This document shows positions 1,253 to 62,002 of a stretch of 64,000 nt of DNA, piece after piece. A program made the translations under genes and the position numbers. The stretch is from Chryseobacterium binzhouense. GTDB lineage: Bacteria > Bacteroidota > Bacteroidia > Flavobacteriales > Weeksellaceae. Positions within the stretch are counted from its first letter, which is position 1. Every line of letters starts with the position of its first letter. The stretch lies in contig NZ_VKOG01000003.1 of NCBI RefSeq assembly GCF_007474545.1, positions 62,001 through 126,000 on the forward strand. Direction: 5' to 3'. The notes below the pieces were generated by a model, which saw nothing but the letters and a program-made list of their open reading frames with translations, ran no database searches and had not been told where the DNA came from.

Positions 1253-3394
1253 TTATTTCATTCCGTTTCTTTGTTTTTCCAGCTTCCAGGCTCTGTGAGA
1301 GGCAATTGCTGAAATGAAATTCTGATCTCCACAGTTGTTTTCCTCGAGAATTACTGCATAATCCTCATGTTTTTTGGTATAAATGTCCGTGTGATCATAA
1401 ATAAGCTCTGTATGATTCCCGAAATAAATTGCCTTACAGTGACGGTAAGCTTCATTGATGAAATCCAGTACGCCGTTTTTATAATCAGGTTGAACCCAAT
1501 GATGGGTAGAATTTTCTCCAGAAACCACATACACAGCATCAAAACAAACGCTTGCCGTACTTGTAATGGAATGATGAGGCATAAATGTGATGCCGTTTTC
1601 ACCTTTTACCGGAATCATTTCCGGAGCTACAAACTCTACTACTCCACCCTGCTCTTCAAGTTTATTCTTAAGACCGGAAACACTTTCATCGTTAAAACCG
1701 TCTGCAATCAGAAAAGCAATTTTTCTGCTTTTAATGGAGTCTTTTATCGTATTTGCCATGCTTAATGCTTCAGAGACTTTTGTTTCAGGCTCACGCTCTT
1801 CACTCTGCAATGATTGGGAATCCGCATCTGCAGGAATACTTCCGTTGGGTTTTTCTAATATTTTTATTTCCACAGCAAGCTTTGAAGCTACTTTTTGAGC
1901 CAGTTCCTTATCAATAAAGTTAAGCTGACTTACCATTCTCTCACGAATTGCCGGAATTGTTACTTTGGTCAATTCAAAAATTAAAGCTTTCTGCAAGTGT
2001 TCTTTTTCATAATCCGCCTGACTGTTGTAAAACAATTTTGCCTGAGAATAATGATCAACAAAAGATTCACTTCTTGCTCTGATCTTTGTTCCGCTTATTT
2101 TTTCGCCATACGAAGCAAAGCCGCCATCTTTTATCATTGCCTGAAAAGGACATCCTCCGCCAATAGAATTAGGCTCATAGCTTACCTTTCCTTTTGCAAT
2201 CTGCTGTCTCATATGACCGTCACGCTGATTGTTGTGAACTGTATTTATTGATCTGTTGATAGGAATTTCGTGGAAATTCGGCGATCCTAATCTGGAAAGC
2301 TGGGTATCTGTATACGAAAACAATCTTCCCTGAAGAAGAGGGTCATTGGTAAAATCTATTCCCGGCACAATATGCCCAGGATGGAAAGCAACCTGCTCTG
2401 TTTCGGCAAAAAAGTTGTCGGGATTTCTGTCTAAAGTCAATGTACCGAAAATCTCAACGGGCACAACTTCTTCAGGAATAATTTTGGTGGGATCCAAAAG
2501 ATCAAAATCAAAATCAAATTCATTTTCCTCAGGCACAATCTGTACTCCGAAATCCCATTCCGGGAAAGCTCCTTTTTCTATTGCTTCCCAAAGATCACGA
2601 CGATGAAAATCAGGGTCAAATCCTGAAATTTTCTGAGCTTCCGGCCATGCTACAGAATGAACTCCCAGTTTTGGTTTTAAATGAAACTTAACAAAAGATG
2701 CAACGCCTTCACTATTAACGAATCTAAAGCTGTGAACACCAAAACCTTCCATCATTCGGTAACTTCGCGGGATGGCTCTGTCGCTCATCAGCCACATAAT
2801 CATGTGCATACTTTCCGGCATTAATGAGATAAAATCCCAGAATGTATCATGTGCCGACGAAGCCTGTGGAATTTCATGATCAGGTTCTGGCTTTACGGCA
2901 TGTACCAAATCCGGAAACTTGATGGCATCCTGTATAAAAAATACAGGTATATTATTAGCCACAAGATCGTAATTTCCTTCTTCTGTATAAAATTTTATGG
3001 AAAAGCCTCTTACATCTCTTGCAAGATCGGTACTTCCCCTGCTGCCTGCTACTGTTGAAAATCTTACGAAAACAGGAGTTTCTTTGCCGGCTTCAGACAA
3101 AAATTTTGCTTTGGTATATTTTTCCATGCTTTTGGAGAGTCTGAAAACTCCATGTGCACCAGATCCTCTTGCATGTACAATTCTTTCTGGAATTCTTTCA
3201 TGGTCAAAATGGGTAATTTTTTCTCTCAGGATAAAATCTTCAAGAAGTGTTGCTCCTCTCTCATCTGATTTGAGTGAATCCTGGTTGTTGTTGATTTTTA
3301 AGCCTTGGTTTGTCGTCAGTTTTTCACCGGAATTATCGGTGGTATATTGTTGTAACTGATCAACTTTCGGATTGTTTAAATTGTCTTTTTTCAT
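1253..3394 (-). CDS. katE: large-subunit (clade 2, HPII-type) monofunctional catalase
   Basis: A 713-residue haem catalase that converts hydrogen peroxide to water and oxygen. The catalytic His is H74 in the VHARGSGAHG segment, the active-site Asn is at N147/N148 in the DLVANN segment, and the haem-ligand Tyr is Y361 in RLFSYTDTQ. Residues about 560-705 form the extra flavodoxin/DJ-1-like C-terminal domain (SRKIAFLIADGFNDESV) that marks large clade 2 catalases and gives the usual length of about 700-750. There is no signal peptide, so it is probably cytoplasmic, although the first 45 residues are polar and look disordered. It stands alone between terminators beside a cluster of stress genes, fitting a stationary-phase or oxidative-stress role. 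Confidence 0.97.
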   Translation of the reverse strand: MKKDNLNNPKVDQLQQYTTDNSGEKLTTNQGLKINNNQDSLKSDERGATLLEDFILREKITHFDHERIPERIVHARGSGAHGVFRLSKSMEKYTKAKFLSEAGKETPVFVRFSTVAGSRGSTDLARDVRGFSIKFYTEEGNYDLVANNIPVFFIQDAIKFPDLVHAVKPEPDHEIPQASSAHDTFWDFISLMPESMHMIMWLMSDRAIPRSYRMMEGFGVHSFRFVNSEGVASFVKFHLKPKLGVHSVAWPEAQKISGFDPDFHRRDLWEAIEKGAFPEWDFGVQIVPEENEFDFDFDLLDPTKIIPEEVVPVEIFGTLTLDRNPDNFFAETEQVAFHPGHIVPGIDFTNDPLLQGRLFSYTDTQLSRLGSPNFHEIPINRSINTVHNNQRDGHMRQQIAKGKVSYEPNSIGGGCPFQAMIKDGGFASYGEKISGTKIRARSESFVDHYSQAKLFYNSQADYEKEHLQKALIFELTKVTIPAIRERMVSQLNFIDKELAQKVASKLAVEIKILEKPNGSIPADADSQSLQSEEREPETKVSEALSMANTIKDSIKSRKIAFLIADGFNDESVSGLKNKLEEQGGVVEFVAPEMIPVKGENGITFMPHHSITSTASVCFDAVYVVSGENSTHHWVQPDYKNGVLDFINEAYRHCKAIYFGNHTELIYDHTDIYTKKHEDYAVILEENNCGDQNFISAIASHRAWKLEKQRNGMK

Positions 3395-3465
3395 AAAATA
3401 TTGGTGATTATATTCAAAAGAATACCTTCCTGAAAAATTTATTGTCAGGTAAGTATAAAGTAAAA

Positions 3466-3494
3466 TTTTAGCTGAATAAAATGTTCAGCTAAAA
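3466..3494 (-). terminator. intrinsic terminator after the small lipoprotein gene
   Basis: A perfect 11-bp inverted repeat, TTTTAGCTGAA (3466-3476) and TTCAGCTAAAA (3484-3494), with a 7-nt loop. The minus-strand 3' side continues AAAATTTTACTTT. It lies between the lipoprotein gene and katE, both on the minus strand, so it should separate their transcription. Confidence 0.7.
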
Positions 3495-3567
3495 CATAAG
3501 GTATGTATCCATTACAGACATCCGCAAAAATGCTGTAAAGATTAATGGTTTTAATTATAAAACTTTC

Positions 3568-3795
3568 TTAGCGACGATTAGGAGAGGCAACACTATCTCT
3601 CATCATTTGTGATGAGTCCGGTCTTCCCTGTGCATTTAATGCTGCAGTGTCGGAAGGCGGAAGTGCCATAGATGTATCTGTTGACATATCGGCTGAATTC
3701 ATAGTATCAGTCTGATTGTCTACCTGCGTTTTTTCTTTTGAACAGCTGATTACAGTAAGCCCAAGAATAAGGGCACAAAAAAAATACGTTTTCAT
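3568..3795 (-). CDS. small predicted lipoprotein of unknown function
   Basis: A 75-residue protein with a short lysine-led hydrophobic signal (residues 3-16) ending in a lipobox-like VISC, placing the lipidated cysteine near residue 18. The mature part is only about 57 residues, rich in Ser, Thr, Asp and Gln, with no recognisable domain. Low-complexity, disordered lipoproteins of this type are common next to stress genes in flavobacteria, but function cannot be assigned. It lies between katE and a Crp/Fnr regulator on the same strand, separated from katE by a strong terminator. Confidence 0.75.
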   Translation of the reverse strand: MKTYFFCALILGLTVISCSKEKTQVDNQTDTMNSADMSTDTSMALPPSDTAALNAQGRPDSSQMMRDSVASPNRR

Positions 3796-10860: not shown

Positions 10861-11246
10861 GCTTTTAACTAAGAAACAATAAAAAAGAGTATTTTTTAGT
10901 TATATAACCGGAGGGTTCAGTCTATATATCATCAAATTATTATTTAATTTTCAAATATTTGAAAATCAATCATTTAAAAATCTATATACCATTCTAGTTT
11001 TATAAATTTTTACGTTAATATTTATAAATGCTACCCACACTTGTTTGCCAAAGAAAATATATGCTTATATATTTGTTACAGAAAAGCATGAGACACTAAT
11101 CATTCATATATAACTTTTCATCATTCAGTTTTCATGTAGAATATCAGGGTTCGGACAAGCTAGGAACATGAACCCTGTTCTCTACAATTCCAGAAATATT
11201 TTTTGATGAAAATCACCATTTATACCATCACATTATATTAATAAAA

Positions 11247-11309: not shown

Positions 11310-13022
11310 TTATTCTTTTGATCTTTCCAGCTCACTGATTCTTTTCTTAATAAAATCTGCCGGTCTTATACCATTTTGTTCAAGAAAAATATTAGAGAAA
11401 CTTTGCCGGTTACTAAAACCAGCCGCTGAAGCAATGTGTTCAATTGAATACTTTCTCCACTCCTTATCATGATAAATTTTCTCGGTAGCGAAATTGATTC
11501 TTAAGACATTAATATAAGTGTTGAAGTTACTGCCTTTATATTCATTAATTACTTGTGACAGGTAAGAAGTATTTGTTTTAAACTGTTCAGCTAATTTTTT
11601 TAATGTCAAACCTTGTTCAAGGTAGCCTTGATTTTTTTCAAAGTTCTGTATGTCTTTCAATAACTTTTCAACAATACTATTATCAAACTTAATATTTTTC
11701 TCAGAATCAGCTATTGGCTCTTGCTTTACCGGAATTTCAACAGGCTGCTGTTGCTGCTGTTGCTGTTTTTCTTCCATTTTCTTTAGCAGATCTTCATAAC
11801 TTTTTTGGATTTTTTTCTGTTTCTTAAGCCTCATATAAATTACAAAAGCAAGAAATCCAATAACAACTACACAAAATAAAAGCAAAATTTTACTGAAGGA
11901 ATTGCTTTTTTCTAAATCTTCTTTAGTGTCCAAAAGCCTTTTGGTATCATATTCTTTATAGACACGTGTAGATAAATATTTAAAATCAGCTGCAATGATG
12001 CTATCCGCTTTCAATAGCTGATTAGTATAATACAACTCCTCCTTATGATTTTCTCTTTTCTTGTAAAATTCTATGAGTTCTTCATAATTTGTTCTTAATT
12101 CCGGAAGAATAAAGGTGTTTTTATTGAAAATTGAATCTACTTTTTTATAGTTCTCAACTTCTTTATCATGATTTCCAAGAATTTCATAACTTCTACCTTT
12201 ATAATAATAAATATATGAAATCCATGTAAAGTCATTAACTTTAATTAATTCAGGCAAAGATTTATCAAAATATTCAATGGCTTTATTATAGTTCTTCTTT
12301 CTAAACTCTGAAATACCTATGCTTTTATTAAAATAGCTCTTCTCCAGATAAAAATCTTTAGAATCAGGTAAAGTCTTTATTCCTTCTTTTAACAATTGAT
12401 CAGCCTGCGCATTCTTATCAAGCATCTGATAACAGACAATCGCTTGGTGAAGTGAGTTAAAATAACCCTTTCTATTGTTAAATAAAAGGTTTTTGTGCAG
12501 ATTATCACTCAGCTTTGTTTCAAAATACCTTATGCAATCATTAAAAATTTCTAGAGCCTCGTCGTAGTACCCTAAATAACTTTTAACAACACCAATATGA
12601 TATAAATTTTGATATTTTAAAAAGTCATCTTTAGAATCTTTTAAGTGCTCATAAGCTTTTAAGTATTCTTCTAAAGCTAACTGAAACTTTCTCTGGTTAA
12701 AATAATATATTGCACCTTTACTTAAAAAAGCATCACCAATCAAATCTTCATCTCCTGATTTTTTTGCTGCTGCTATTGCACTATCAGCATAGTTCAATTT
12801 ATTATTTGATGAATATAATATCGCATCTTTGTATGCTTGAAAAAGCTCTTTATGGTTATTTTCTGACTTGGCTTTCTTTATATATTGATTAATAAACACA
12901 AATGCTCTTGAATCATTTTCTTCAAAACCGTAATATTTCTCTCTCAATTTAGAATAATAATCCTGTGCATACAGTAATACAGTAAGCATAATAAAGAAAG
13001 AAGTAAAAATTTTTTTAATCAT
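11310..13022 (-). CDS. membrane-anchored TPR sensor with AraC-type DNA-binding domain
   Basis: 570 residues. A signal peptide (1-19, ending LLYAQ) is followed by a periplasmic region of TPR-like helical repeats (about 40-345; typical pieces are YYFNQRKFQLALEEYLKAY and YNKAIEYFDKSL), one transmembrane helix (about 379-397), a coiled, basic linker with seven consecutive Gln (420-426), and a C-terminal AraC/XylS HTH pair (about 460-565, with KLAEQFKTNTSYLSQVINEY and HIASAAGFSNRQSFSNIF). This one-component, membrane-spanning layout is a recurrent flavobacterial regulator type; the signal is unknown. It is divergent from the small lipoprotein gene at 13257 across 234 nt, so regulation of that gene is a reasonable guess. 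Confidence 0.92.
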   Translation of the reverse strand: MIKKIFTSFFIMLTVLLYAQDYYSKLREKYYGFEENDSRAFVFINQYIKKAKSENNHKELFQAYKDAILYSSNNKLNYADSAIAAAKKSGDEDLIGDAFLSKGAIYYFNQRKFQLALEEYLKAYEHLKDSKDDFLKYQNLYHIGVVKSYLGYYDEALEIFNDCIRYFETKLSDNLHKNLLFNNRKGYFNSLHQAIVCYQMLDKNAQADQLLKEGIKTLPDSKDFYLEKSYFNKSIGISEFRKKNYNKAIEYFDKSLPELIKVNDFTWISYIYYYKGRSYEILGNHDKEVENYKKVDSIFNKNTFILPELRTNYEELIEFYKKRENHKEELYYTNQLLKADSIIAADFKYLSTRVYKEYDTKRLLDTKEDLEKSNSFSKILLLFCVVVIGFLAFVIYMRLKKQKKIQKSYEDLLKKMEEKQQQQQQQPVEIPVKQEPIADSEKNIKFDNSIVEKLLKDIQNFEKNQGYLEQGLTLKKLAEQFKTNTSYLSQVINEYKGSNFNTYINVLRINFATEKIYHDKEWRKYSIEHIASAAGFSNRQSFSNIFLEQNGIRPADFIKKRISELERSKE

Positions 13023-13256
13023 TGATATCTCCCTGACAAATTTTCATCAAAAATACATAAAAACTATTTATAATAAGCTATTTTAAACTGATCTGTTTAA
13101 ATTTTTAAACAGCATTTTTTTATTAATGCTTTTATTACAAATTGTAAAAATTTATAAATCAGACCCCCTGTTTCTTGCTTTAAGTACAGATTTTGACTAC
13201 TTTCGAGCATCTAAAATTATCAAAAAATAGTAAGTTTAATCATTAATCCTAGTACA

Positions 13257-13601
13257 ATGAAAAACAATTTTATAGCACTTAGCTTAGCAATTATCGGAAT
13301 TTGCACAGTTGCCTGCAGGCAGTCTGATGAAAACTTTGATGAAGATTTTAAAGCATCTAAAGAAAATGTTGAAGAACCTCAAATGACAGCAAGAGATTCG
13401 ACAGGAATAAACCCAGATCCACCAAGAAACGGTACACATTGGAAAATAGCAGGTAAAAACAAGGAGAATCCAAAAGAGACACCTGAATCAGGAAGTCTAA
13501 TAGTTATAAAAAGAGATACCATAAATACTCCAACAACTGATATAGGTGATAATGGCGGTGGTGATCCTCCTAGAAATGGAACACACTGGAGAACAAAATA
13601 A
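13257..13601 (+). CDS. small lipoprotein with two DPPRNGTHW repeats
   Basis: 114 residues. The N-terminus MKNNFIALSLAIIGICTVAC looks like a lipoprotein signal with Cys20. The mature part is polar and apparently disordered, but contains an exact nonapeptide DPPRNGTHW twice, at residues 54-62 and at 103-111, the second only three residues from the C-terminus. The two DNA copies (13416-13442 and 13563-13589) differ at five third-codon positions and no residue changes, indicating selection on the peptide itself. I do not recognise a family. The divergent TPR-AraC membrane regulator next to it is a possible partner. A terminator follows. Confidence 0.8.
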   Translation: MKNNFIALSLAIIGICTVACRQSDENFDEDFKASKENVEEPQMTARDSTGINPDPPRNGTHWKIAGKNKENPKETPESGSLIVIKRDTINTPTTDIGDNGGGDPPRNGTHWRTK

Positions 13602-13624: not shown

Positions 13625-13657
13625 ACTACTTTCTAAAATTAGGAAGTAGTTTTTTTA
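13625..13657 (+). terminator. intrinsic terminator of the repeat lipoprotein gene
   Basis: ACTACTTTCT (13625-13634) pairs with AGGAAGTAGT (13641-13650) with one wobble pair, followed by seven T. Confidence 0.8.
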
Positions 13658-61975: not shown

Positions 61976-62002
61976 ATCAAAAAAACCGGCAATTTTGCCG
62001 GT
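61976..62002 (-). terminator. intrinsic terminator of the clpS operon
   Basis: ACCGGC (61985-61990) pairs with GCCGGT (61997-62002), extended by AA/TT; the minus strand continues with seven T. It is adjacent to the clpS stop. Confidence 0.8.

Follow-up and report, generated by a model that had tools for sequence, protein, structure and literature searches.

A two-copy motif lipoprotein and a divergent TPR-AraC regulator as a candidate ligand-receptor pair in Chryseobacterium and its relatives

The DNA analysed here (the window, 64,000 nucleotides of Chryseobacterium binzhouense, positions 62,001 to 126,000 of contig NZ_VKOG01000003.1, assembly GCF_007474545.1) carries a gene for a small lipoprotein and, divergent from it, a gene for a TPR-AraC regulator, which lies where a first-pass annotation of the sequence had placed it. 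The genes flanking the pair we take to encode pyruvate dehydrogenase subunits. The features of the locus are as follows.

10997 to 11013, minus strand: one-mismatch copy of the 17-bp box listed below, about 300 bp downstream of the receptor gene
11310 to 13022, minus strand: receptor (regulator) gene, 570 aa; Pfam TPR_12 and HTH_18; AlphaFold2 model
11952 to 12959, minus strand: TPR solenoid, residues 22-357, predicted periplasmic ligand-binding part
12609 to 12623, minus strand: receptor residues 134-138 (Phe134, Gln138), co-varying with the Asn/Asp position of the motif
12915 to 12920, minus strand: receptor residues 35-36 (Glu35, Asn36), with weaker co-variation with motif positions p5 (His/Asp) and p1 (Lys/Arg)
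13144 to 13160, no strand assigned: conserved 17-bp box GTAAAAATTTATAAATC, candidate operator, in the shared intergenic region just upstream of the promoter-like element
13198 to 13206, plus strand: promoter-like element TACTTTCGA, of the form TAnTTTCGA in 13 of 13 aligned regions
13257 to 13601, plus strand: lipoprotein ORF, 114 aa, ATG start, lipobox VAC20 (Cys20)
13314 to 13334, plus strand: putatively lipidated Cys20 and the next residues (CRQSDEN), resembling in sequence the Bacteroidetes lipoprotein export signal
13416 to 13442, plus strand: motif copy 1, DPPRNGTHW, residues 54-62
13563 to 13589, plus strand: motif copy 2, DPPRNGTHW, residues 103-111
13625 to 13657, plus strand: terminator-like hairpin and T-run 3' of the lipoprotein gene, found by eye

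The lipoprotein consists of a signal peptide with lipobox, an acidic CRQSDE start, a linker that by eye is polar and of low complexity, and the two motif copies, the last of which ends three residues short of the C-terminus. It had been claimed that an exact nonapeptide occurs twice in this ORF and that its DNA copies differ only synonymously, and both statements hold: copy 1 is encoded by GAT CCA CCA AGA AAC GGT ACA CAT TGG and copy 2 by GAT CCT CCT AGA AAT GGA ACA CAC TGG, five of the nine codons being unlike, all in the third position and with the amino acids unchanged. The exact pattern DPPxNGxxW has just these two matches in the 3.6-Mb genome, and a reversed control pattern has none. When the protein was compared with Pfam and NCBIfam, no family was found above cut-off.

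The two copies appear to be tied to each other in other members of the family as well. Over 20 proteins with several copies, the mean difference between first and last copy was 0.6 amino acids within a protein, against 2.16 with shuffled partners, and none of 20,000 shuffles gave a value as low as that observed. The last motif position was Trp in both copies of 18 proteins and Tyr in both copies of two, with no mixed case, while the Asn/Asp position was N/N in 12 and D/D in six, never N/D, and mixed in another way in two, as N/S in one protein and I/S in the other; at the two inner positions that follow, five rare variants were shared by the copies of a protein and one was confined to a single copy. 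Between the first and the last copy, synonymous differences are saturated (82 on 108 sites, pS 0.76), as against 12 non-synonymous differences on 432 sites (pN 0.028), both being simple counts in which one non-synonymous change was taken per differing codon. The proposal of an old duplication with the peptide held constant is supported. On the tree, 10 changes fall in both copies on one branch, eight in the first copy only and seven in the last only, with seven of these 15 one-copy changes at the first motif residue. Since the copies change together, both seem to answer to one selecting partner. Recent gene conversion was considered as a source of the identical copies and is unlikely, because the synonymous sites are saturated; conversion followed by long divergence is possible for some pairs.

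Among relatives the motif takes the general form (D/E)PPx[KR][ND]xxxW, with variants, near the C-terminus of proteins whose other shared features are a lipobox, a polar linker and an acidic CRQ(S/D)DE-type start. Two or three copies are found in one group, which includes the window protein, and one copy in most others; many single-copy relatives are 64-90 aa long. Homologues with repeats occur in several species and not in one strain only. The exact sequence of the nonapeptide, however, is not kept among them (relatives have DPPRNTTHW, DPPRDGSHW, DPPKNGTHW, DPPKDKDHW or NPPKNGTHY), and both copies largely change together. A chance repeat or one-strain artefact is ruled out by the existence of the family and by the codon pattern. 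At E 0.001, a profile built from 21 relatives found matches in 130 of the 174 genomes available for the genus; in the order, 77 of 296 genomes had a match. Both counts are upper bounds because many weak matches cover little beyond the signal peptide; a search with the single protein at E 0.01 gave matches in 32 of 149 genomes of the genus. Three relatives compared with NCBIfam gave nothing above cut-off. In a regular-expression parse, 99 of 114 distinct family lipoproteins had at least two acidic residues at +2 to +6, and most had Arg at +2 and Gln at +3, mostly without Lys.

Several variations on the lipoprotein gene were also observed. At four loci (L076, L077, L078 and L079) a tandem second lipoprotein gene carries different motif copies (e.g. 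NPPRDTSHW beside DPPKNGTHW), at three of them with an extra SGS(H/Q)WRIS stretch, and at L079 its Asp-type motif misfits the adjacent receptor (Phe134, Gln138), so that this second lipoprotein may work as an antagonist or may belong, as ligand, to a different receptor. A small ORF of about 56 aa (CPxSGIWESxGxFKTTxxxxKGxxMPxYCGxKxxWxL) recurs 3' of the single-copy lipoprotein gene and on the same strand (L103, L121, L124, L129, L137, L141, L142, L143, L148, L150, L156, L158 and L168); one representative had no match in Pfam or NCBIfam.

The regulator is built of a signal-like helix (residues 2-18), a TPR solenoid (about 22-357), a long helix (360-424) and an AraC-type HTH (448-569). Its Pfam assignments are TPR_12 (2.3e-11) and HTH_18 (1.2e-10, above the curated cut-off), and the AlphaFold2 model has a mean pLDDT of 88.1. 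Between the TPR and HTH parts, the long helix contains a hydrophobic stretch, seen by eye, that is predicted to cross the membrane. Because of the signal-like N-terminal helix, the predicted transmembrane helix and the C-terminal AraC HTH, the TPR domain is predicted to be periplasmic. Structure comparison placed the peptide-binding TPR receptors NprR-NprX and Rap among the fold neighbours, and by sequence profile RapF was the best TPR match (E 1.6e-5, although each stretch taken singly fell short). In the structure comparison, eukaryotic TPR proteins such as LGN and APPBP2 scored no lower than the RRNPP receptors, and the fold match by itself therefore indicates a peptide-binding TPR solenoid and no more.

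Other TPR-AraC genes were met in different company. A third such gene of the window's genome (L120, C1:395500-403500), with 31% identity, faces not a lipoprotein but an ORF (3360-3596, minus strand) for a Gly-Gly-leader peptide that matches NCBIfam leader_Chryseo, a bacteriocin-like protein, and a similar Gly-Gly-leader ORF was seen by eye at L330. TPR-AraC regulators may thus read several kinds of exported peptides. Two distant TPR-AraC genes (L318, L321) directly adjoin ORFs that, we assume, resemble lantibiotic dehydratase-type proteins.

The first-pass annotation had proposed to look for such repeats next to TPR-AraC regulators, and the search was positive. A TPR-AraC homologue was present in 137 of the 138 regions fetched around lipoprotein profile matches (39 of 40, 58 of 58 in L121-L178, and 40 of 40; one of the 39, L095, has a split receptor ORF). 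The only region without a regulator, L097, is a duplicated stretch holding an extra, truncated copy of a two-repeat lipoprotein. In the first two sets of regions the regulators were 28-92% identical to that of the window, the regulator of C. echinoideorum being 92% identical. The 97 receptor regions of these sets (L072-L111 and L121-L178) hold 95 distinct receptors, and in 96 of the 97 the lipoprotein gene is directly divergent from the regulator gene (92 by filter and four by reading the ORFs); in the exception, L155, a 360-aa receptor ORF has no lipoprotein directly upstream. With starts chosen mechanically, 87 of 94 loci have an intergenic region of 165-296 bp, and the other seven have one of 374-490 bp. 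The window's genome has a second complete pair (L119), whose motif is EPKKDKQHW.

Starting from the receptor, the best 80 of 188 regulator loci found by profile in named genomes were taken; among their sources were Chryseobacterium, Epilithonimonas, Cloacibacterium and Moheibacter, and 78 had enough upstream sequence (L236 and L238 were left out). A divergent lipoprotein was found at 59 of the 78 (56 by filter, each with the motif, and three by eye), and the remaining 19 had no adjacent lipoprotein (L190, L191, L195, L196, L198, L204, L212, L218, L221, L222, L223, L227, L228, L229, L231, L233, L241, L248 and L250). In these regions the lipoprotein thus nearly always lay beside the regulator, and the regulator can stand alone. 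Tyr134 and Gln138, otherwise states of different receptor types, were combined in 10 of the 19 orphan receptors and in three of 109 paired ones; this mixed state fits a relaxed constraint after loss of the ligand and is confounded by clade.

The outer neighbours of the pair vary between loci. Two genomes from the window's genus (L131, L133) and one from a different genus (L160) have in common a 10.28-kb stretch that includes one pair, at 99.99-100% identity, which suggests a recent transfer of the pair between genera. At one recurring locus the pair lies beside ORFs of about 1063, 485 and 361 aa, presumably an efflux pump. This locus bears on an explanation that we hold to be quite unlikely, in which the lipoprotein is a permanent regulatory subunit of the regulator (an inhibitor, an activator or a decoy), what is really sensed is something else, for instance envelope damage or a drug, and at some loci the pair may control the adjacent pump. 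A precedent is provided by VtrA/VtrC and ToxR/ToxS, in which a membrane regulator has an adjacent periplasmic partner (PMC9214523, in excerpt). Receptors occur here without any partner, though, the two genes are divergent and do not form an overlapping operon, and by eye the lipoprotein resembles a flexible epitope and not a folded sensor, all of which argues against such a subunit.

The link between motif and receptor was followed to single residues. With the motif positions numbered p0 to p6 (p1 Lys/Arg, p2 Asn/Asp, p6 Trp), 152 pairs were reduced to 115 by dropping identical receptors and to 109 by omitting six that had no parsable motif. Where p2 is Asp, receptor residue 138 is Lys (49) or Arg (7) in 56 of 59 cases and residue 134 is Tyr in 58 of 59; where p2 is Asn, Gln138 and Phe134 are each found in 24 of 36. 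Column 138 ranked first of 530 for Lys/Arg against ligand Asp (phi 0.85, the next column 0.50, in the 109 pairs), and the rule was correct in 101 pairs and failed in eight. When the ligand character was simulated on the receptor tree, none of 740 kept simulations reached this phi at any column, a family-wise result. Tyr at column 134 went with Asp at phi 0.82, a value reached by none of 3,000 simulated receptor columns in a pointwise test, made on a column that the data had already singled out. By mutual information, 138 and 134, one helix turn apart in the TPR domain, were the top two columns for p2, and the top columns for p0 and p3 lay in the HTH (469, 483).

Two further associations were borderline family-wise: Asp at p5 with Lys/Arg at residue 35, which is otherwise mostly Glu (phi 0.93; 7 of 186 simulations), and Arg at p1 with Asp36 (phi 0.58; 48 of 901). 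Three charge tests failed, the observed value being reached in 68 of 503 simulations for p4 Asp, in 390 of 592 for p3 Lys/Arg and in 147 of 750 for basic or His p5 against acidic receptor residues. In all of these tests, simulations with a state frequency far from that observed were dropped, leaving of 1,000 the 740 for p2 Asp, 186 for p5 Asp, 750 for p5 basic, 503 for p4, 901 for p1 and 592 for p3.

A hold-out set of 40 regions, fetched later, gave 33 pairs, 28 of them non-redundant and 26 parsable; the other seven regions failed the lipoprotein filter and went uncounted, and all seven show DPPVRDGDNWR by eye. The set is not fully independent, because its receptors share 51-88% identity with their closest counterparts in the training set. 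Asp at p2 faced Lys/Arg138 in 20 of 20 pairs and non-Asp in four of six (Fisher 0.046, phylogeny ignored); non-Asp ligands here still mostly face Arg, and Tyr134 accompanied Asp in 17 of 20. Glu35 was found with acidic p5 in none of six pairs and otherwise in 17 of 20 (Fisher 0.0004, phylogeny ignored), and Asp36 with Arg at p1 in six of 10 and otherwise in none of 16 (Fisher 0.0009, phylogeny ignored).

The motif co-varies with the TPR domain of the regulator, with charge complementarity. It could be argued that the lipoprotein is merely a regulated target, that its motif serves some other partner (as a surface adhesin, a substrate, or in metal or cell-wall binding) and that shared ancestry produced the co-variation. 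Divergent pairs of regulator and target genes are common, and related receptors tend toward related motifs. Parsimony on 216 branches placed only two of 10 Asp switches on the same branch as a switch at 138, and four of 10 with one at 134, so that many of the co-variation counts are inherited. Shared ancestry is poorly reconciled with the family-wise simulations on the tree and with the charge complementarity that held in the hold-out set. Moreover, the motif tracks the TPR domain rather than the HTH: in partial Mantel tests on 108 pairs (one of the 109 was dropped for coverage) the correlation of motif with TPR given HTH was 0.283, reached in none of 2,000 permutations, against 0.06 (p 0.071) for motif with HTH given TPR, while the signal peptide, used as a control, had no TPR preference (0.132 and 0.157). 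Together with a recurrence in a second family, described below, these results make the target-only explanation very improbable. The earlier ideas that the repeated peptide is a binding epitope and that the divergent TPR-AraC protein is its receptor gain support, at the level of sequence, from the near-universal linkage and the residue-level co-variation.

Distant receptors (30-36% identity) from a genus of another family of the order, probably Flavobacterium, face a lipoprotein of 229-246 aa at five loci (L312-L316). Relatives of one of these lipoproteins were found at 21 loci in 16 of 81 genomes of that genus, with lengths of 222-259 codons from stop to stop, and each of the 21 is adjoined by a TPR-AraC homologue on the opposite strand, as read in its 5' part. 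All 21 contain DxDW, and 13 contain [KR][KR]DxDW. Five of the 21 have Asn or Lys, and no Asp, directly after the basic residue, so that their fit to the Asp rule depends on anchoring at the Trp. Tyr134 and Lys138 were present in 20 of 20 readable receptors (L333, unreadable there, was left out) and in none of 15 distant TPR-AraC proteins lacking such a partner, in an alignment that is uncertain at about 30% identity; an acidic residue 35 was kept in four of the 20 (two Glu, two Asp). Two of these lipoproteins had no match in Pfam. By eye, the epitope is internal, some 20-50 residues before the end of the protein. Two unlike lipoprotein scaffolds thus seem to present a similar epitope, with no need for a C-terminal place or for repetition.

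The position of the epitope is of importance for the possibility that the motif is a peptide pheromone, which would be cut from the lipoprotein, shed, diffuse, re-enter the periplasm and activate the same TPR receptor in a form of quorum sensing, more copies giving more yield. The same linkage and co-variation data would be expected, the set of features is RRNPP-like (PMC10075063, in excerpt), and the repeats are kept identical. In addition, 91 of 114 proteins end at most four residues after the last Trp, 22 of them exactly there, and the residue after the Trp is usually Lys or Arg, a possible processing site. Against this, the second-family epitope lies inside a larger lipoprotein and a free peptide end is therefore not required, and a shed peptide would not need a lipid anchor. 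We regard a pheromone as unlikely, though it is the strongest of the competing explanations, and the ligand is probably the lipoprotein itself and not a released peptide.

In the shared intergenic region, the first 16 bases of the 17-bp box are identical in 13 of 13 aligned regions (the window and 12 orthologues) and the 17th in 12. The promoter-like element downstream of it resembles the Bacteroidetes -7 element. Because the box sits just upstream of this element, activation of the lipoprotein gene, in a feedback loop, is most likely. Genome-wide the box has one exact site and three one-mismatch sites, and a regulon search with it in this genome returned no convincing target beyond the shared promoter. 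The one-mismatch copy at 10997-11013 precedes a stretch without a clear ORF and possibly marks a second regulated transcript. The core of the box was found in 16 of 94 loci. Different conserved boxes take its place in other clades, namely GGCCGGGATAA (about -30; 37 of 94 loci) and AATTA[GA]GACG (about -125; 27 of 94), and the operator is therefore not universal.

We propose, with a probability of about 0.6, that the divergent genes are a dedicated ligand-receptor cassette, RRNPP-like in its working but placed in the envelope. The lipoprotein would be exported by Sec, lipidated, and would display (D/E)PPx[KR][ND]xxxW on a flexible stalk, twice in the case of the window. The TPR-AraC protein would sit in the membrane and bind the motif directly with its periplasmic TPR solenoid, the residues near 134 and 138, and probably 35 and 36, reading the Asn/Asp, Lys/Arg and His/Asp positions. 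Binding might then be relayed via the transmembrane helix to the cytoplasmic AraC domain, which would act at the shared intergenic region and so control the lipoprotein gene, most likely by activating it. Paralogous pairs that are unlike in motif and in receptor residues would insulate several channels in one cell. The resemblance of the lipoprotein start to a surface-export signal counts against the cassette, as it would put the mature protein outside and away from a periplasmic receptor. Our preferred guess for the physiological cue is lipoprotein abundance or stalled export in the periplasm; the sensing of an export-stalled lipoprotein, again a guess, would reconcile a surface signal with a periplasmic receptor.

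Peptide-type signalling through TPR receptors is known from Firmicutes. In the open-licence literature we recognised no counterpart in Bacteroidota, and a description elsewhere is possible. A broader reading, which we offer tentatively and consider rather doubtful, is that of an undescribed polymorphic system of cell-cell or self-recognition in Bacteroidota, in which membrane TPR-AraC receptors recognise variable epitopes on their cognate lipoproteins, at the surface or in the periplasm. Each genome would have several insulated channels, pairs would pass between genera, and the system would be a Gram-negative counterpart of RRNPP signalling. As for the lipoprotein-receptor cassette itself, it occurs in many Chryseobacterium genomes, in Epilithonimonas, Cloacibacterium and Moheibacter and, altered, in a second family. 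Through it these bacteria would have a testable signalling language whose specificity code can be read from the residues (Asp goes with Lys/Arg138 and Tyr134, and Asn mostly with Gln138 and Phe134), an unannotated lipoprotein family would gain a function and a ligandless class of membrane AraC regulators a ligand, and orthogonal parts would be at hand for synthetic circuits.

Parts of the proposed cassette can be compared with several known systems. The lipoprotein export signal is given, in the portion consulted of PMC5080379, as C-x-K-(D/E)2-x in C. canimorsus and SDDFE in F. johnsoniae. The CRQDDE-like start after the lipidated Cys is similar in its acidic motif (the 99 of 114 above) but differs in having mostly Arg at +2 and Gln at +3 where the export signal has Lys at +3, and surface exposure of the family is putative. 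Co-component systems pair a membrane-tethered transcription factor with an adjacent periplasmic partner, the two evolving fast, and in the VtrA/VtrC type the gene of a lipocalin-like partner lies downstream on the same strand and often overlaps that of the regulator; CadC-type regulators combine an HTH, a transmembrane segment and a periplasmic sensor, part of which is a helical domain built of tetratricopeptide repeats (both from an excerpt of PMC9214523). With VtrA/VtrC and ToxR/ToxS the present pair has the logic of a membrane regulator with an adjacent partner in common, and not the parts: those systems have a ToxR/CadC-like HTH and a lipocalin-like co-sensor in one operon, whereas a TPR domain, an AraC-type HTH (by its HTH_18 match a member of the AraC family) and a small lipoprotein in divergent orientation are found here. 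In CadC-type regulators the domain order is reversed and the HTH family is another one. To our knowledge, no lipoprotein ligand belongs to them.

The closest likeness is to the RRNPP systems of Firmicutes (Rap-Phr, NprR-NprX, PlcR-PapR), in which the gene for a small protein exported by Sec adjoins that for a TPR receptor, and the receptor often is itself a DNA-binding regulator. According to an excerpt of PMC10075063, the propeptide has 10-100 aa, is exported by Sec and is matured by exopeptidases to the communication peptide, the receptor is intracellular with 250-500 aa and TPRs, and the two genes are directly adjacent. Direct adjacency and receptor TPRs (by Pfam, model and fold neighbours) are found here too, and Sec export fits the sequence of the window lipoprotein, with its evident signal peptide and lipobox. 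The sizes are different, the lipoprotein having 114 aa, the second-family partners 222-259 codons and the receptor a measured 570 aa, as is the probable location, the receptor being predicted, from its signal-like helix, transmembrane helix and C-terminal AraC HTH, to hold its TPR domain in the periplasm and not inside the cell. The putative ligand is moreover a lipoprotein and not a demonstrated free peptide, and the hosts are Gram-negative. The proposed cassette is thus like RRNPP in its working without being a member of that family.
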